DNA of 40,589 nucleotides, from NCBI GenBank assembly GCA_913052475.1, contig CAJXEJ010000019.1, forward strand, positions 1 to 40,589, in the 5' to 3' direction. The stretch's first letter is position 1. The number at the start of each line of letters is the position of its first letter. Positions 12,545 to 19,563 of the stretch are shown piece after piece. Source of the DNA: an uncultured Dehalococcoidia bacterium. GTDB taxonomy: Bacteria > Chloroflexota > Dehalococcoidia > Lucifugimonadales > Lucifugimonadaceae. The position numbers and the translations under genes were made by a program. The notes under the pieces were generated by a model. The model was not told the DNA's origin. It saw only the letters and a list, made by a program, of their open reading frames with translations, and ran no database searches.

Positions 12545-13465
12545 ATGGTTTCGGATTCGATTGAGTTGATTGCTGATGATCTGTTTTTTCCGGAGGGTCC
12601 TAGATGGCGCGCTGAGGAGCAGAAGCTGTATTTCAGTGATGTGATGGCGGGCAAGGTTTCTCGTGTCGATGATGCTAGCGCGGTTGAGACGGTATTCGAA
12701 CCGGGAGAGTTTCCGAATGGGCTAGGGTTTCTGGACAACGGCGATCTGTTGGTTGTTGCGACAGAGAGTAGGACAATTGTTCGATTGGCTGCATACCAGG
12801 TGGTGGTGGGTAGTGCGAGGCGGTCGGATTCTTCGCACCATGCTGATATTTCGACGGCGTACGGAACTAGGAACAACGACATGGTGGTTGCTCAGAACGG
12901 GAACGCTTACGCGGGGGCATATCTTCCAGGATTGAGCGAGGAGGTTCCACCGGGTCCAGCGAATCCACCGCAGTTTGGAAATTTGGTTTTGGTGCGTCCT
13001 GATGGGTCATCGCAAGTGGTGGCAGATCGTGTGTGCTTTCCGAACGGTGGGGCGGTAACTCCAGATGGGAAGACGCTGATCGTTGCGGAGACTTTTGCGT
13101 TTACGTTAACGGCCTGGGACATCGAGGACGACGGAACGTTGTCAGGCCGGAGACCGTTCGCGAATCTGGCGGCTCCGACGGATGGGATTTCGTTAGACGC
13201 TGAAGGCTGTATCTGGGTGGCGTGTCCATATTTCTCTTATGGCGATTCCGGTGGTTGGGTTCGGGTTGCTGATGGCGGTGAGATTAAGCAGGTGATTGCG
13301 CTTGAGGATCGGGACAAGAGTGCTTATGCGTGCATGCTCGGTGGAGCCGATGGTCGAGATTTGTGGCTGTGCGAGTCGACCGTTTTTGGCCAAGAACGTT
13401 TTCAGGGTGATGGTCGAGTGCGCAAGGTGCGAGTGGATGTGCCTATGGCTGAGGGGCAGTGTTAG
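12545..13465 (+). CDS. SMP-30/gluconolactonase family protein
   Basis: The 306-residue six-bladed beta-propeller enzyme has the expected metal ligands: E17 in FFPEGPRW, an Asn in NNDMVV near residue 111, N167 in FPNGG and D213 in PTDGISLD. Family members hydrolyse sugar lactones or related esters. It starts at an ATG with AGGGAG six bases upstream; an ATG four bases earlier is out of frame. Residues 82-98 between blades are unusual for the family and rich in Ser/Arg. The gene stands alone: ilvD is divergent and the glycyl radical enzyme gene is convergent. The nearby aldolases and dehydrogenases make a role in sugar-acid breakdown plausible. Confidence 0.9.
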   Translation: MVSDSIELIADDLFFPEGPRWRAEEQKLYFSDVMAGKVSRVDDASAVETVFEPGEFPNGLGFLDNGDLLVVATESRTIVRLAAYQVVVGSARRSDSSHHADISTAYGTRNNDMVVAQNGNAYAGAYLPGLSEEVPPGPANPPQFGNLVLVRPDGSSQVVADRVCFPNGGAVTPDGKTLIVAETFAFTLTAWDIEDDGTLSGRRPFANLAAPTDGISLDAEGCIWVACPYFSYGDSGGWVRVADGGEIKQVIALEDRDKSAYACMLGGADGRDLWLCESTVFGQERFQGDGRVRKVRVDVPMAEGQC

Positions 13466-13520
13466 GACGCCGGTGACGTGGCAATTGTGTTAGGGCGTGG
13501 TTTGCGTAGTTGCGTTCCCC

Positions 13521-13563
13521 CCCTGGTCTAGCCTCCTCCCTCAGGGAGAAGGCTAGACCAGGG
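13521..13563. terminator. long hairpin between convergent genes, probable two-way terminator
   Basis: CCCTGGTCTAGCC (13521-13533) and GGCTAGACCAGGG (13551-13563) form a perfect 13-bp stem. The 17-nt loop holds a second small stem CTCCC/GGGAG. It is followed on the plus strand by ATTAAAAAA. It sits between the convergent stops of the SMP-30 and glycyl radical enzyme genes. A related but degenerate hairpin lies at 19067-19102. Confidence 0.6.
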
Positions 13564-13571
13564 ATTAAAAA

Positions 13572-13595
13572 ATCCTGAAATGAATTCAGGGTGAC
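13572..13595. repeat. REP-like element, type A
   Basis: CCTGAA-ATGAA-TTCAGG, with flanking AT and GTGAC, is a near copy of the palindrome at 6918-6942. The minus strand reads GTCACCCTGAATTCATTTCAGGAT. It lies directly beside the long hairpin between convergent genes. Confidence 0.65.
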
Positions 13596-13626
13596 AGTGC
13601 TGGCTATGGGGGCTAACTGATCTCGT

Positions 13627-15693
13627 TTACGCTTGGAAGGCTCCGTGTTGGGTTCGACCGAGGACGTGGTCTTGGAGTCCGGGTGGGAGGTCGACGAATA
13701 CGGCGGAGAAGCCCCAGACTCGAACGATTAGGCTGCGGTATTCCGGGTTGTCGGGGTTGTCGCGTGCCTTTAGCAGGGTGTCTCGATCGATGATGTTGAC
13801 CTGCAGAGTTATGACCGAAGGCATCTTCAGGAAGACGGTTAGAAGCGCCACGAATTTTTCGAATGCGTCGTCGCCTCGGACTATCGCTGAGTGAAGGGCG
13901 ATGTCGAGAACGGAGCCGTGACCGGCGCGGTCGAGATCGACTTTCGCAACTGATCGCAGGACAGCGGTGGGACCGCTGGTGTCCATTCCGACGGCGGGCG
14001 AGAAGCTATTGGCGGTGAGTTCACCCATTTTTCGTCCGTCGGGAGAGGCACCATATGCGCTCTTCTTGTGGATACCGAATGACATGAAGCCGGGCGCCCA
14101 TTTGCCGCCGGGACCTTCAGTGTTGTGGGATCGGTCGTGGACTCCGTCACAGAAGAATTCAGAGACTTCCTTGGCGATAAGATCGACGTAATCGTTGTCG
14201 TTGCCGAACTTGGCGGTTTTGTTCTTGAGTATTTGGTAGAGCGATTCGTAGCCTTCGAAATCGGCTTCCATCGCATTGCGGAGCCGAGTCCAAGTCAGGC
14301 TGCGCTCGTCGAAGATGAGCTGCTTGATAGCTGCGAGCCCGTCGGCAGCGTTTCCAACTTGAGCCAGAATCTTGCCGTTGATGGCGTATCGCGCTGCTGT
14401 CGGAGATGCTTCTTCCAGGCAGTCTTCGATTGCTGCTGCAAAGAACGGGAACGTTATTGGACGTGCCGGACCGGGAGCATCGGGCATAACCTCGACGAGC
14501 CGTGACTTGTAGTCGGCCATCACCTCATCGAACGTTGCAAACTCTTTGTTGGCTGTGCTGTATACGAGTTCGTTGAGAACTGGAAGCGCATCGGTGACTT
14601 TGAACTTGATGGTTCCCTTGCCCCCCATGATGAGTTCGGAGCAGCCGTCGTTGCAGTAGTCACGTGCTTCTTCGATCGGGATACCGATCTGTACGAGCGA
14701 AGGTACGGCGACTTCATCGTTGAAAACGGCGAGGTTGTTAGAACCTTTGGCGAGTGCTTGGGCGGATGCTCGGAGTAGGGATGCTGGTGTGCCTTCGAAG
14801 AATCGGACGTTTGTTTTGGGTTCGGCGAGCATCAGTTTTCCTGACGCCTCGACGCACATGAAAGTGACTTCATTCGAGGCGTCGCGACCGTCGGCTGTTT
14901 GACCGGCGATAGAGATGTTGCGCAGGGTGTCGTTGTCGGCGAGATTGGCGTGCGGGAAGTGGGCGGTTTTGATGAACAGGCACTCGAGAAGCTCTTGCGC
15001 CTCGGAGTGGGTGAGTCGACCGGAGTCGATGTCGTCACGGTAGTACGGGTACATCCACTGGTCGAAACGTCCGATGCAGCCACGGCCGCCCAGCACTCGG
15101 GTGAACTGTATGAGTTGGAGGGCAGAGTAGAACGAGGTTGGTTTGCCGGTCGCCAGTTCATCGCAAATTGCTGAGATGTTGTTGAGTTCTTGTGCCCTGA
15201 CGGGATCGGATTCGTTGGCGGCCTTGTTTTCGGCGTTACGTCCGAATTTTGCTACATATTTGCAGGCGGCTTCGAATGAAATTACGACGCCTTTGAGAAA
15301 GTCACGACTTTCTGGGTCGGTGACGGTCTGGAGTTTCTCTTGGGCCTTGTCTCGCATTCCCGGAAAGCCGCGGGAGAGGAGCATGGCGTGACCGGGTGGG
15401 TAGTGAGGATCGTATTCGCCGAGGTTGATTGATTCGGCGTCTTCGGGAGTTGCGAGTAGCGAGCCGACGATGAGTTCGTCGTCCTGAATGAACGGATCAC
15501 TGGCTTCGAGGAGAGAGGCGAAATCTTTAGCGTGACCGACGAGGGTGTCTTCCCCAGAACCGACGATCGGCTTCGTTGCCACCGCAGCATCGTGGGTCTT
15601 CTCCCAGTGCATGTTCCGGAGGCGGCTAATGCGGCTATTGGGATCGAGTTCCATGTTCAAGCGGTCTGACGCATCGCGCACAGGGGTCAGCAT
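13627..15693 (-). CDS. glycyl radical enzyme (pyruvate formate-lyase-like), short form
   Basis: The 688-residue protein has both signatures of a glycyl radical enzyme. The first is an active-site loop NDGCSEL with Cys351 and, two residues on, Glu353. The second is a C-terminal radical site RVWGFSAVFVDL with Gly661. The C-x-E pattern is that of radical dehydratases, C-N/C-S lyases and decarboxylases, not of pyruvate formate-lyase (C-C). It is about 80-100 residues shorter before the active-site Cys than characterised members (about 790-850 residues), so it belongs to no group I can name. The start is ATG at 15693 with GGAGAG seven bases upstream; the frame also has a TTG at 15699. The activase gene is divergent, 187 bp away. 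The enzyme is inactivated by oxygen once activated. The substrate is unknown. Confidence 0.92.
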   Translation of the reverse strand: MLTPVRDASDRLNMELDPNSRISRLRNMHWEKTHDAAVATKPIVGSGEDTLVGHAKDFASLLEASDPFIQDDELIVGSLLATPEDAESINLGEYDPHYPPGHAMLLSRGFPGMRDKAQEKLQTVTDPESRDFLKGVVISFEAACKYVAKFGRNAENKAANESDPVRAQELNNISAICDELATGKPTSFYSALQLIQFTRVLGGRGCIGRFDQWMYPYYRDDIDSGRLTHSEAQELLECLFIKTAHFPHANLADNDTLRNISIAGQTADGRDASNEVTFMCVEASGKLMLAEPKTNVRFFEGTPASLLRASAQALAKGSNNLAVFNDEVAVPSLVQIGIPIEEARDYCNDGCSELIMGGKGTIKFKVTDALPVLNELVYSTANKEFATFDEVMADYKSRLVEVMPDAPGPARPITFPFFAAAIEDCLEEASPTAARYAINGKILAQVGNAADGLAAIKQLIFDERSLTWTRLRNAMEADFEGYESLYQILKNKTAKFGNDNDYVDLIAKEVSEFFCDGVHDRSHNTEGPGGKWAPGFMSFGIHKKSAYGASPDGRKMGELTANSFSPAVGMDTSGPTAVLRSVAKVDLDRAGHGSVLDIALHSAIVRGDDAFEKFVALLTVFLKMPSVITLQVNIIDRDTLLKARDNPDNPEYRSLIVRVWGFSAVFVDLPPGLQDHVLGRTQHGAFQA

Positions 15694-15757
15694 GATCAAT
15701 CTCTCCGTATCGAGTCACGTTTATTAGGCAGTTCCCGTCCGTATTCAGGGAAGGATA

Positions 15758-15780
15758 AGCTATCTGGCGACTAGATAGCT
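15758..15780. promoter_or_regulatory. inverted repeat between glycyl radical enzyme and activase genes, likely operator
   Basis: AGCTATCT-GGCGACT-AGATAGCT is a perfect 8-bp inverted repeat with a 7-bp spacer, so the arm centres lie about 15 bp apart. It lies in the short divergent region and could control both genes at once. The symmetry suits a dimeric regulator; no regulator gene is adjacent. Confidence 0.5.
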
Positions 15781-15807
15781 AGTTTGGCTAAAATGTTGGC
15801 AAAGTGA

Positions 15808-15833
15808 GAACGGTCACTGAATTTTGATCGTTC
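15808..15833. promoter_or_regulatory. second inverted repeat in the same divergent region
   Basis: GAACGGTC (15808-15815) and GATCGTTC (15826-15833) match as an inverted repeat with one mismatch and a 10-bp spacer. It lies about 50 bp upstream of the activase start and could be a promoter-proximal operator or part of its leader. Evidence is symmetry and position only. Confidence 0.3.
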
Positions 15834-15880
15834 GCAAGAGTTTGGGTGATTCCGTATGTGGATCACGGAGAGCATTTTGT

Positions 15881-16822
15881 ATGGCCCCTTCTGAGATTGA
15901 GACATCGGTGCGAATCGGACGTGTTTTCGATATTCAGCGATTTTCTATCCATGACGGTCCGGGCATTCGGACGACGGTATTCCTGAAGGGATGCCCGCTG
16001 CGGTGTTTGTGGTGTCACAACCCGGAGAGTATTGACCCTCGTCCGTTGCTTTCTTTCGTTGCCGACAAGTGCATCAACTGTGGAGCGTGCGCAGAGGTGT
16101 GCCCGAATCAGGCTCACGTGATGGACGAGTCGCTCGGGCATGTGTTTTTGAGAAAGAAGTGCGATGCGGTCGGGGCGTGTGCTGACGTTTGCCCGTCGAA
16201 GGCGCTGGAGATCGTTGGGCGTGCTATGTCGCATGAAGAGGTGCTCGAGAGAGTGCTTCGAGACGTGCCGTTTTACGAGGCCTCGGGCGGTGGCGTGACG
16301 TTCTCGGGTGGCGAACCATTGCTACAGGTCGATTTTGCCGAGGCGTTGCTGCGTGATGTGAAGGCTGCGGGTGTTCATACCGCTGTCGAGACGGCGGGGC
16401 ATGTGATGTTCGATCGTCTTGAGAGAGTGGTTCCTTATACGGATCTGTTTTTGTTCGATGTGAAAGAAACGGACGACTCTCTACACCAGAAGTTCACGGG
16501 TGTTTCGGGCGATCGAATTCGAGAGAATTTGGTGAAGCTTCACGATACCGGTGCTTCGATTCTGATGCGGATGCCGATCGTTCCAGGCTTGAACGATCGT
16601 GAGGAGCATTTCCTTGAGGTGGCTCGTTTTGTTGCGCCACTTACGGATCTGCTGGGTGTTGAAGTGATGCCGTATCATAGCCTTGGTTTGAGCAAGCGTG
16701 ATCGTCTGGGTTTGGATCTGGAGGATGGGACGGAGTCGTCTCCACCGAGTAACGAGAAGATTGTGGAGTGGGTGAGTTTGCTGCGTGGCGAGGGTGTGAA
16801 CGTGGTGAACGAGGTACCGTAG
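15881..16822 (+). CDS. glycyl radical enzyme activating enzyme (radical SAM)
   Basis: The 313-residue activase would generate the glycyl radical on the neighbouring enzyme. It has the radical-SAM triad C38-x3-C42-x2-C45 (GCPLRCLWCHN) and a SAM-contact motif FSGGEPLLQ. A ferredoxin-like insert begins at residue 64: the first cluster is complete (CINCGACAEVCP), but the second keeps only three Cys (C94, C100, C104), with Val97 in place of the expected fourth. The start is ATG at 15881, with GGAGAG eight bases upstream; a longer frame to 15824 is rejected. The insert places it with activases of the C-x-E radical lyases rather than with the short PFL activase, agreeing with the partner's active site. 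Confidence 0.93.
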   Translation: MAPSEIETSVRIGRVFDIQRFSIHDGPGIRTTVFLKGCPLRCLWCHNPESIDPRPLLSFVADKCINCGACAEVCPNQAHVMDESLGHVFLRKKCDAVGACADVCPSKALEIVGRAMSHEEVLERVLRDVPFYEASGGGVTFSGGEPLLQVDFAEALLRDVKAAGVHTAVETAGHVMFDRLERVVPYTDLFLFDVKETDDSLHQKFTGVSGDRIRENLVKLHDTGASILMRMPIVPGLNDREEHFLEVARFVAPLTDLLGVEVMPYHSLGLSKRDRLGLDLEDGTESSPPSNEKIVEWVSLLRGEGVNVVNEVP

Positions 16823-16898
16823 GGTATTTGATGATCGTCGTGTCACACAGTTAACTTCCCTGCGACGACAGATGGCGATTACTCAGGATTTTGTTTGT

Positions 16899-17534
16899 TC
16901 AGCCGGGGGTGATTCGCCATGAGGAGAGGTGCTGGGCGGAGTGTTCGGTGGTGTCGAGACGGATCATTAGCGGGACCATGTGGTCGAGGGCGACAGCTTC
17001 GGCGAGGGTGCCGCATTCGATTGGTGTGAATCCGATTCCACGAATGAGTTCGGCGACTACTTCCATTGCTGCTTCATCGTCACCAGCGTAGTGAACTTCG
17101 CGGGGCTTGCCAGTTGAATCAACTGGATTTTCGAATGTGGCGGCGAAGTTGGTTTTGAAGGCGGCGATCACGCGTGCGCCTTCTCCAATTATCGAGGCGG
17201 TTACTTGAGCACCGGAATCGCCATTGTTTGGCTGGGCTGCGAACGGGTTGGTGATGTCGATGACGATCTTGGTTCGAAGCGATTCAGCGAATTTTCGTGC
17301 GGTTGCGGCGACATCTTTGTAGGGCACAGTGATGATTACGATTTCGCCGGCGTCGATGGCTGCCTGATATCCCCAGATCCGAGATTCGTGCCCCACTGAG
17401 TCGTGGAAGTCGTTTTTCGTTTCGGGTCGGCGTGATCCGAAGGCGACGAAGTGTCCGGCGGCCATGAATGATTTACCGAGAGCTAGTGCCATGTTTCCGG
17501 TGCCGAGTATGCCAATGCGGGGTTTTCGTGCCAC
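16899..17534 (-). CDS. NADP oxidoreductase, coenzyme F420-dependent type
   Basis: The 211-residue Rossmann protein has GILGTGNMALALG at its N-terminus, followed by FGSRRPE, where the arginines suit NADP(H) binding. It continues with VIITVPYKDVA and VIDITNPFA, both typical of the F420-dependent NADP oxidoreductase family (PF03807-like). Such proteins move hydride between NADPH and reduced F420, though many bacterial relatives have other or unknown partners. I chose the GTG at 17534 (VARKPRIGI) with AGGAA nine bases upstream. The frame is open to 17633 but that extension comes from repeat-rich intergenic DNA. It converges on the activase gene. Confidence 0.82.
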   Translation of the reverse strand: MARKPRIGILGTGNMALALGKSFMAAGHFVAFGSRRPETKNDFHDSVGHESRIWGYQAAIDAGEIVIITVPYKDVAATARKFAESLRTKIVIDITNPFAAQPNNGDSGAQVTASIIGEGARVIAAFKTNFAATFENPVDSTGKPREVHYAGDDEAAMEVVAELIRGIGFTPIECGTLAEAVALDHMVPLMIRLDTTEHSAQHLSSWRITPG

Positions 17535-17919
17535 GAGTGACTGTTCCTGAGAGGTTGAGGGTGGTTGGTTTGTTTCGGCGAAGTGAAGAGATTGTACGTG
17601 GCGTTCGTCCCACACCCTCCCCTCTCCCTCCAAGGGAGAGGGGAGAACCGCGCGCGCCCCTGCATCAGGTTCCGGCTCGTTTGGCTCCGGGCGTCGTCGG
17701 ACGACTTGGTCGTGCGTCGCAATCTACCCTCCCTCTAACCCCTTCTAGAGGAGAGAGGACTAGTGGTTCCACTAGGGAAATTCGGTCAGCTACCATCGAA
17801 GATTTGTGTGGCGGATGTATACCGTTCGGAGCTTTGCGGGAGTAGGCTTCGTTGTTGGGCCGCCGAGCGACGCTTTTTACCGAGTTAGCAGTCCTTTTGG
17901 ACGATGAGAATTTACGTAA
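17535..17919. other. gene-free stretch rich in hairpins
   Basis: This 385 bp stretch holds no supported gene. It contains the 13-bp hairpin at 17617-17645, a C/T-rich block CCCTCCCTCTAACCCC near 17728-17743, and a short perfect hairpin CTAGTGG-TT-CCACTAG at 17760-17775. The promoters of the oxidoreductase (minus) and PLP enzyme (plus) genes must also lie here; I cannot place them. Confidence 0.5.
17617..17645. repeat. GC-rich perfect hairpin
   Basis: CTCCCCTCTCCCT and AGGGAGAGGGGAG form a perfect 13-bp stem with a 3-nt loop. It lies upstream of two divergent genes, so it cannot be a simple terminator for either. Such C/T-rich hairpins recur between genes in this window. Confidence 0.5.
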
Positions 17920-19020
17920 ATGACTGAATATCTTCCTTTGCCAGGCACTCCCATTGAGGAGTTGGATACGCCGTGCATAGTGGTCGATCTCGATGTGGCT
18001 GAAGCCAATATCAAGAAACTACAGGCGGCAGCCAACGAGATGGGCGTCCATGTTCGGCCTCACTCGAAAACGAATAAGAGCCCTTACTGGGTTCACAAAC
18101 AGCTTGAGGCCGGAGCGATTGGCGTTTGCTGTGCGAAAGTCGGCGAGGCCGAGGTGATGGTCGAGGCCGGTGTGCCGGAAGTGATGATTCCGAACCAAGT
18201 GATTGGCGCACGCAAGATCGCTCGATTGGTGGCTCTGGCACGTTCGGCGAAGATCATCGTGGCGGTTGAGGATTCGGGCAATGTTGATGATCTTTCGGGT
18301 GCGGCGAGTTCGGCTGGCGCTGAACTTGGTGTGATTGTCGAAGTAAACGTCGGCATGAATCGCTGTGGTGTCGATGGTGACGGTGCGGTGGAGTTGGCGA
18401 AGCAGATCGAAGCGGCTCCTGGGCTGCGGTTCGATGGTCTTATGGGTTACGAGGGTCATACGGTAGCGGAGCGGGACTACGAGGTTCGTAAGACCGAGGC
18501 CGAGAAGGCGATGGCGATTTTGACGGGGGCTGCCGACCAGATTCGTGATGCGGGTATAGATGTGAAGCTGGTTTCGGCTGCGGGAACTGGTACTTACAAC
18601 ATCACGGGGCGGGTTGAGGGTGTGACGGAGTTGCAGTGTGGTTCGTACATTTTCATGGATGGGGACTATCTCGAGGTGTTCAACGATTTCGAGCCGGCGC
18701 TTTCGGTGCTAGCTACGGTGATTTCACGCCAGAAGCAGGACGTTGCGATTGTCGATATGGGATTGAAGTCGATTTCGATTGATCGTGGATTGGCCGAGGT
18801 TCTTTCGCCAGCCTCGGCTTCGATAATCAAGCATTCCGAAGAGCACACCACGGTGAATTTGCCAGATGCTGCGTCGCAGGCGTTGAAGGTTGGCGACAAG
18901 GTGCAGAGTCGTCCAACTCACGGTGATACGACGATCAATTTGCATGAGTACTACTTCGGTATCCGCGACGGCAAGCTTGAGCAGGCTATTCCGATTCCTG
19001 GTCGCGGCAAGTTTCGTTAG
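17920..19020 (+). CDS. D-threonine aldolase / D-serine dehydratase-like PLP enzyme (DSD1 family)
   Basis: The 366-residue fold-type III PLP enzyme has the cofactor lysine K50 in RPHSKTNK and LDTPCIVVDLD at the N-terminus. A C-terminal metal site HGD gives His334 and Asp336. In this family, His-x-Asp is typical of D-threonine aldolases, while His-x-Cys is typical of D-serine dehydratases, so an aldolase-type reaction on a D-3-hydroxy amino acid is favoured. The usual RPH[AS]KTHK motif has Asn for the last His. It starts at an ATG at 17920 and is probably monocistronic. The substrate cannot be fixed from sequence. Confidence 0.87.
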   Translation: MTEYLPLPGTPIEELDTPCIVVDLDVAEANIKKLQAAANEMGVHVRPHSKTNKSPYWVHKQLEAGAIGVCCAKVGEAEVMVEAGVPEVMIPNQVIGARKIARLVALARSAKIIVAVEDSGNVDDLSGAASSAGAELGVIVEVNVGMNRCGVDGDGAVELAKQIEAAPGLRFDGLMGYEGHTVAERDYEVRKTEAEKAMAILTGAADQIRDAGIDVKLVSAAGTGTYNITGRVEGVTELQCGSYIFMDGDYLEVFNDFEPALSVLATVISRQKQDVAIVDMGLKSISIDRGLAEVLSPASASIIKHSEEHTTVNLPDAASQALKVGDKVQSRPTHGDTTINLHEYYFGIRDGKLEQAIPIPGRGKFR

Positions 19021-19066
19021 TCGCGCTCGTGACGTTCACACTCGGCTCCGCGTCGCAGTCTCCTAC

Positions 19067-19102
19067 CCTCTAGCACCTCCCACTTTGGCAGGAAGCTAGA
19101 GG
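19067..19102. repeat. hairpin related to the 13521 hairpin
   Basis: CCTCTAGC (19067-19074) pairs with GCTAGAGG (19095-19102) over a 20-nt loop starting ACCTCCC. The CTAGC arm and the CCTCCC...GGAA loop resemble the hairpin at 13521-13563, suggesting one degenerate family. It lies about 50 bp past the PLP enzyme stop. Confidence 0.45.
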
Positions 19103-19396: not shown

Positions 19397-19563
19397 TTTT
19401 AGGGTTGTTGCCGGTTGGGTGTTAGGGACTTGATAGGCGCTTCTTCCTCACCCACCCTTTCCCGCTGGGAGAGGGGGGCGTAATTTGGCACGCCGGTGTA
19501 GTCCCGCACCGCCGAAGGTCTCTCTACTTCGCTTTGCTACGGTCGAGAAATCGGATATCAGAC

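Follow-up and report, generated by a model that had tools for sequence, protein, structure and literature searches.

Glycyl radical enzymes (GREs) carry out some of the hardest bond cleavages of anaerobic metabolism, and new GRE subfamilies have often proved to have new substrates. The question raised by contig CAJXEJ010000019.1, taken here over its positions 1 to 40,589 (the window, 40,589 nucleotides of an uncultured Dehalococcoidia bacterium of the family Lucifugimonadaceae, genome G000), is what an unusually short GRE, encoded divergently from a putative activating enzyme (activase), is, and what it might do for its host. Our answer, held with moderate confidence, is that the two genes form a working unit, made of an activase and a compact radical lyase or dehydratase of the C-x-E type, which is gained and lost among facultatively anaerobic members of SAR202, a label that we give to the window's order from the name of one of the carriers, G550. 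The features on which the argument turns are the following.

13627-15693, minus strand: compact GRE of 688 amino acids (aa), with an ATG at 15693; the open reading frame (ORF) is open to a TTG at 15699.
15403-15405, minus strand: codon of His97, aligned with His160 of the trans-4-hydroxy-L-proline dehydratase HypD and His164 of B12-independent glycerol dehydratase (GD).
14641-14643, minus strand: codon of the active-site Cys351, in the motif DYCNDGCSEL, invariant in 8/8 members of the compact subfamily.
14635-14637, minus strand: codon of Glu353, in the same motif.
13711-13713, minus strand: codon of the radical Gly661, in the motif RVWGFSAVF, invariant in 8/8 members.
15694-15880: intergenic region of 187 bp between the divergent GRE and activase genes.
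15881-16822, plus strand: GRE activase, a radical S-adenosylmethionine (SAM) protein with CxxxCxxC at Cys38/42/45, scoring 343.7 bits against TIGR02494, above its cut-off of 174.35.

The domains, the catalytic residues and the pairing of the two genes are established by sequence comparison, and the fold by a model. The window GRE has the PFL-like and glycine-radical domains of the superfamily (PF02901, E 4.3e-99; PF01228, E 5.6e-17), the catalytic Cys and the radical Gly, and a barrel in the AlphaFold (AF2) prediction. This model, obtained with 38 alignment rows, has a mean pLDDT of 88.7 and a pTM of 0.91, with pLDDT below 50 at residues 1-11, 248-255, 540-542 and 684-688, and its top Foldseek match is GD 1r8w (E 9.7e-44, 27% identity), narrowly ahead of other GREs. 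The C-x-E site at Cys351 and Glu353 and the radical at Gly661 that the original prediction had read from the sequence are exact when counted from the ATG at 15693. His97, Gly350-Cys351-Ser352-Glu353 and Trp660-Gly661 are kept in all eight known members, whose ORFs are all intact, and the ratios of nonsynonymous to synonymous substitution rates (dN/dS) are indicative of purifying selection, with values of 0.07, 0.11 and 0.10 for the three pairs of GREs compared and, for the corresponding activases, of 0.12, 0.11 and 0.17; the window-G021 pair is near saturation, and its ratio was left out. Because both the GRE start at 15693 and the activase ATG at 15881 fall on start codons of the relatives when six of them are aligned (the GRE start of one being GTG), the divergent gap can be taken to be 187 bp.

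These eight members come from seven genomes of the window's order (five genera, two families) and from one Poribacteria metagenome-assembled genome (MAG), found in a scan of named genomes and 57% identical; the SAR202 MAG Arabian12_MAG_33 and G550 are counted as one member. A search of 60 genomes, the window's own included, gave GRE matches in three, namely its own, G021 (whose copy is 74% identical) and G004 (a fragment). When 250 genomes of the order were scanned with a four-member profile, the seven carriers scored 1301-1440 bits (the scores of three profile members being high by construction, because the profile includes them) and all other matches 358 bits at most. In a class sample of 393 genomes, 63 have some GRE at E <= 1e-60, and only G000 and G523, both already-known members, exceed 422 bits; the best further matches in a phylum sample of 400 genomes, in G383 and G187, are 38-40% identical. 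A scan of viral contigs found nothing. The original prediction had pointed to related genomes as the place to look for the same divergent pair, and it is indeed present in all seven carriers of the order. On the Poribacteria contig (5 kb, ending 85 bp past the GRE) no activase ORF was seen; on the upstream side, a co-directional gene for an M28-peptidase-like protein (L054:864-2828) stops 65 bp short of the GRE.

All seven carriers of the order also have, on other contigs, a second GRE that we call C9-type, and six of them (not G021) a third, C15-type, while G528 has a fourth; among the 243 non-carriers of the order, only four have any GRE match (a fragment in G004, and G492, G505 and G614), so that carriers and non-carriers differ sharply in their other GREs (7/7 vs 4/243, Fisher p 3e-11). 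In the window's own genome these two further enzymes, G000:C15 (L044:7950-10424) and G000:C9 (L045:8880-11297), are of the GCYEP and NCWE types, have adjacent activases, and reach no curated equivalog cut-off.

The shortness of the enzyme is conserved. A deficit of 80-100 residues before the active-site Cys had been predicted, and the counts bear it out, with 350 residues in the window GRE vs 432 in GD (Cys433, numbering from our alignment) and 433 before the catalytic Cys434 of HypD, as numbered in PMC7077986. Most of the shortfall comes from a single internal gap after residue 77: residues 77 and 97 enclose 19 aa in all eight members vs a median of 89 aa (range 26-133) in the alignment of 37 other GREs. 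Past the Cys, the span 351-425 encloses 73 aa vs about 97 in the others, hence about 24 fewer, a combined span that we quote because an anchor at residue 370 for the length of the Cys loop was unreliable. Several smaller gaps bring the overall contraction to about 100 residues. From their aligned starts the compact members measure about 680-690 aa, and the next shortest complete C-x-E rows 714-719 aa, a comparison confined to aligned rows, with ORFs known by length alone set aside and with four rows of 661-680 aa discounted as cut by contig ends. An assembly fault at the N-terminus, which would have undone the case, cannot explain a contraction that is identical in eight members.

Nor does the enzyme fit a named family. 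The window GRE reaches no NCBIfam equivalog cut-off, scoring 295.6 bits for HypD (NF043068, cut-off 1100), 297.8 and 293.5 for the sulfopropanediol dehydratases (NF048009 and NF048011, cut-offs 1000), 251.6 for the choline TMA-lyase CutC (TIGR04394, 1050), 291.9 for NF007437 (1109), 199.2 and 168.7 for the arylacetate decarboxylases IAD (indoleacetate decarboxylase, 1100) and HPAD (1150), and 67.2 for pyruvate formate-lyase (PFL, TIGR01255, 994.2), whose Cys-Cys pair is replaced here by Cys351-Ser352; the PFL2/GD subfamily model TIGR01774 gives 373 bits, below its 678.2. Against PDB sequences, 1r8w scores best (301 bits), followed by two isethionate lyases (226.9 and 221.8), HplG (198.8), MasD (169.7) and BssA (141.8).

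In a tree of 89 rows (of the quick type, with SH-aLRT support and without bootstrap), the compact sequences, all eight of them, group on a single branch (SH-aLRT 100, stem 1.3), nested in a clade of 17 rows (SH-aLRT 97) to which none of the 11 anchors belongs. The row set had first been reduced for an unanchored tree, by removing five rows of overlapping loci and thinning 116 to 75 at 70% identity with every short member retained; for the anchored tree the long PFL-like row L040 was left out, and the isethionate sulfite-lyase IslA, XSS, HplG, IAD and PhdB are absent from it. Among the anchors, CutC (L188), HypD (L182 and L168), PFL (L201 and L205) and HPAD (L206, on a very long branch and of unsure placement) exceed their NCBIfam cut-offs, and L199 falls just under that for HpsG (991.7 of 1000 bits); L178 was assigned by its 1168 bits to GD 1r8w, L186 by its 1209 bits to the N-methyl-hydroxyproline dehydratase 8iof, and L194 and L169, which pass the subfamily model only, carry our own label, YbiW-type. 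A Cetobacterium HypD and the C. difficile L182 served as HypD references; a second C. difficile row, L088, was rejected as HypD, its motif being CVVP. As L190 and L088 show, Clostridia including C. difficile have GREs whose Cys loop reads GCVVP instead of C-x-E, and the one that was scanned reaches no NCBIfam equivalog cut-off.

The 17-row clade also holds uncharacterised GREs of a DGC[SW]E type from Chloroflexota, Bathyarchaeota and Clostridia, 714-862 aa long (L058 being cut by a contig end), none of which combines all of the contractions seen in the compact enzymes. The contraction is in fact graded and not confined to that subfamily, since rows of the surrounding clade show milder forms of it, with 26 aa between positions 77 and 97 in L028 and L080, 37 aa in L022, L126, L011 and L035, and 49 aa in L015 and L016; row L058 keeps the full 89-aa segment. 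Taken together, scores, tree and alignment support a new, unusually compact and as yet unclassified GRE subfamily, defined by its conserved contraction and its altered pocket, in agreement with the original prediction that no named family would fit.

The active-site alignment, like the tree, did not bring the enzyme into an anchored family. GD 1r8w and the compact GRE are alike in the GRE barrel, the Gly and Cys loops, the CxE motif and the catalytic His, and differ by an N-terminal contraction of about 70 aa and a shorter Cys-loop stretch in the latter. In a profile alignment, His281 and Ser282 of GD fall on Gly203 and Arg/Lys204, and in a second alignment Tyr339 falls on Leu257; these GD residues, with Asp447, presumably shape its glycerol site. 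Lys/Arg365 is conserved and its alignment ambiguous, as two HMM alignments gap the Asp447 stretch and an ungapped reading places residue 365 there. PMC7077986 gives the key residues of HypD as His160, Cys434, Glu436, Gly765, Arg156, Asp278, Ser334 and Asp339; the first four correspond to His97, Cys351, Glu353 and Gly661, whereas Arg156, Asp278, Ser334 and Asp339, along with Phe340, Tyr450 and Thr645, have no equivalents in the compact GRE. The sulfonate site of IslA comprises Arg189, Gln193 and Arg678 according to PMC8473560, where the equivalence to HypD is also given, and by way of that equivalence the first two map to Glu93 (Tyr in the Poribacteria member) and His97; the GRE fold and CxE are common to both enzymes, and basic pocket residues are suspected. 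The signature of the subfamily consists of Arg/Lys204 (mostly Ser, Ala or Gly in the 37 other GREs), an invariant Arg258 (Gln in 25/37), Ser352 (Val in 27/37), Trp660 before the radical Gly (Ala in 27/37) and Asn348-Asp349 (Asn in 6 and Asp in 3 of the 37). We infer from these alignments that the pocket is changed and more basic than in the GREs compared.

The activase departs from the usual pattern in one residue. GRE activating enzymes usually have two complete ferredoxin-type cluster motifs, and here the first is complete while the second reads C94-x5-C100-x3-C104, with Val97 in the place of the second Cys. This loss, which the original prediction had correctly noticed, recurs in all seven subfamily activases of the order (motifs read one by one), none of which has two complete motifs. 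It is not a unique oddity, because it is common to the six activases of the C15-type GREs and to at least two further ones, those of L048 (G383) and L066 (a Clostridiaceae MAG); the activases of the seven C9-type GREs keep the second motif complete. By sequence, then, the missing Cys is a recurring variant at the level of the family.

By analogy with known GREs, the radical-SAM activase would install a glycyl radical on Gly661, and the radical would pass on to Cys351, to which a small substrate would lose a hydrogen. With the support of His97, Glu353 would then play the part of its counterpart in CxE-type eliminases and allow a neighbouring group (water, an amine or another) to leave. Both the installation of the radical and the elimination are modelled on characterised enzymes and on the C-x-E plus His pattern, from which we infer that a CxE-type radical lyase or dehydratase, activated by the product of the neighbouring gene and employed when oxygen is low, is the likely identity of the enzyme. 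As for the substrate, the basic residue Arg/Lys204, which aligns with Ser282 of GD, and the invariant Arg258 make us lean weakly to a small, anionic, hydroxylated compound; a sugar-acid-like one would be a guess. A new substrate for the compact GRE is plausible.

That the pair behaves as a unit of gain and loss is suggested by its surroundings, in which three more features matter.

12545-13465, plus strand: SMP-30/gluconolactonase-like protein, left flank.
16899-17633, minus strand: F420/NADP-oxidoreductase-like protein, right flank, with a provisional start codon.
13467-16782: segment missing in the congener G008, whose homology to the window ends at 13466 and begins again at 16783, within the last activase codons.

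None of 18 congeners has the compact GRE, and 11 congener stretches gave no GRE or activase match. In six of these stretches (L241-L246) the pair is missing, 27-180 bp separate the SMP-30 gene from the oxidoreductase-like one, and the two are flanked as in the window, by IlvD on one side and an Ala-racemase-like gene on the other; in L248 and L249 the distance is 1.2-1.5 kb and is taken up by unrelated sequence, L250 is rearranged, L251 is without SMP-30, and L247 begins inside the locus. The flanking proteins are 80-91% (SMP-30) and 62-84% (oxidoreductase-like) identical between window and congeners. G008 (L243, G008:C14) keeps 39/39 bases of the activase 3' end, while the ten other stretches match at 24/39 at most, and its 200-bp block corresponding to window positions 16783-16982 is 94-100% identical to the window vs 74-79% beyond. 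Such a block is a sign of recent recombination and of a probable deletion, and on its simplest reading the pair would formerly have occupied this position, in the lineage of G008 or in a donor of the segment, before being deleted; the alternative is an import of the activase end alone into G008. These observations fit a GRE-activase pair that is a removable unit within a conserved neighbourhood. Across the seven carriers, the pair lies in otherwise differing neighbourhoods, with no other neighbour common to more than two loci; beyond the pair and one antisense ORF family, two gene families (a thiamine pyrophosphate enzyme and one other) are common, both to G523 and G528 alone. In G021 (L043:9455-16083) the pair stands beside a B12-binding corrinoid-type protein, three proteins matching URO-D (one below the cut-off) and a DUF1638 protein, neighbours that suggest corrinoid methyl transfer.

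The hosts look, from their genes, like oxygen respirers with an anaerobic option. PF00115, the heme-copper oxidase family, is over its cut-off in all seven carriers, a count made in carriers only and with oxidases and nitric oxide (NO) reductases taken together. The nitrate reductase gene narG is found at E <= 1e-100 in 5/7 carriers vs 5/243 non-carriers (p 7e-7), over the curated cut-off in 4/7 vs 4/243 (the narG of G551 being in two pieces), and, counted by genus, in all five carrier genera vs 3/92 others (p 9e-7), with the genus of G021 represented by sister species and not by G021 itself. The original prediction saw the pair as isolated among genes of aerobic look; the isolation agrees with a removable unit, and the window's genome does have a PF00115 gene, but also narG. 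In the order, the pair would be gained and lost as a unit in lineages that are facultatively anaerobic and often respire nitrate, and that have the two further GREs as well. On G551:C150 (L154), the compact GRE is about 11 kb from the two-piece narG, with an MFS transporter (MFS_1 by Pfam, NarK-like by eye) about 0.9 kb away. Aerobic respiration with possible facultative anaerobiosis is described for SAR202 in PMC5864207, the text of which has no mention of "nitrate" or "formate lyase", and the passages of PMC9226047 on this topic report no GRE for SAR202 genomes; published accounts of nitrate respiration by SAR202 may well exist already. Tentatively, and a little short of an even call, we propose that the enzyme catalyses a new GRE reaction, and that the subfamily, more compact than the other complete C-x-E members aligned, is gained and lost by nitrate-respiring SAR202 together with two other uncharacterised GREs as a module for anaerobic carbon use in marine bacteria that otherwise respire oxygen. 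A group of the dark ocean, so far portrayed chiefly as aerobic, would thereby be connected with oxygen-sensitive radical chemistry and also, through co-occurrence, with the respiration of nitrate, and the co-occurrence pattern provides a testable hypothesis on carbon use in low-oxygen ocean water.

Several points weigh against a C-x-E eliminase unit of facultative anaerobes. C-x-E alone is no proof of elimination, because some arylacetate decarboxylases carry it too, and with GD Asp447 (in the role that we take it to have) deleted or replaced, the details of acid-base catalysis must differ. The pocket assignments come from alignments at about 30% identity, with a local ambiguity of at least one residue and no coordinates inspected, and the low-pLDDT stretches 248-255 and 540-542 hold or adjoin aligned pocket positions. 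Neighbouring genes across the seven loci spell out no consistent pathway. The co-occurrence tests ignore relatedness and completeness, in a set where G551/G552 and G523/G528 are congeners and the MAGs incomplete, narG is absent from two of the seven carriers, and PF00115 alone does not prove oxygen respiration, because the family also includes NO reductases.

Among the other explanations, an enzyme that is no eliminase, but a radical decarboxylase or a lyase of C-C bonds, would account for the C-x-E shared with those decarboxylases and for a pocket unlike that of the eliminases compared; the low scores against the HPAD and IAD models and the position of the HPAD anchor outside the clade (on a long branch, its place unsure) make it unlikely. 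A shade less probable is a divergent glycerol or 1,2-diol dehydratase that lost an N-terminal segment and kept its reaction: the C. butyricum GD is the top match by sequence and by fold, and the catalytic His and CxE are kept, but the positions of the presumed glycerol site are changed or, in the Asp447 stretch, gapped, the GD-like anchor sits in a different clade, and that true GD relative reaches 1168 bits against 1r8w, the window GRE 301. The PF00115 genes of all hosts, the absence of the pair from 11/11 congener stretches and the partial activase end in one of them could point to a gene left over in aerobic bacteria, in decay or without catalytic function, a reading that is very improbable in view of eight intact ORFs, invariant catalytic residues, dN/dS of about 0.1 in both genes and narG in 5/7 hosts. 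Contamination of the MAGs with GRE contigs foreign to SAR202, estimated contamination being 6% in three of the seven and 4% in two, can practically be dismissed, as G000 stands at 1.01%, the window pair is flanked by genes with close congener homologues, and the same pair occurs in seven genomes of five genera.

Returning to the two-gene unit, the region between the genes has three features of its own.

15758-15780 (arms 15758-15765 and 15773-15780): perfect 8-bp inverted repeat, AGCTATCT-7-AGATAGCT.
15808-15833: imperfect inverted repeat, GAACGGTCA-8-TGATCGTTC, 8/9 pairs, read from the sequence.
15753-15765, minus strand: candidate promoter element AGATAGCTTATCC in the GRE direction, aligned with a AAAATAGCATATCC-like sequence before the GRE genes of relatives.

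Control of both genes from this region through its inverted repeats had been predicted, and of that claim the repeats themselves stand. A perfect 8-bp repeat arose in 37 of 2000 dinucleotide shuffles with a spacer of up to 10, and in 83 of 2000 with one of up to 30, and is thus modestly beyond chance; no perfect repeat of at least 7 bp (spacer up to 30) was found in the 220-bp stretch scanned in each of six relatives, in a scan confined to perfect repeats. With no conservation in the six relatives, we rejected the inverted repeats as regulators. An ATAGC(A/T)TATCC-like stretch, on the other hand, aligns ahead of the GRE gene in seven intergenic regions, overlapping one repeat arm in the window, and may be a promoter element.

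Two minor observations concern the rest of the window. Just 3' of the GRE stop, at 13517-13562, a palindromic stretch seen by eye (CCTGGTCTAGCC...GGCTAGACCAGG) is a possible terminator or small repeat element. Further to the right, positions 17676-17770, 19007-19095 and 19504-19553 have many matches of about 80-96% dispersed over the congener genomes, in the manner of a repeat family of the genus.

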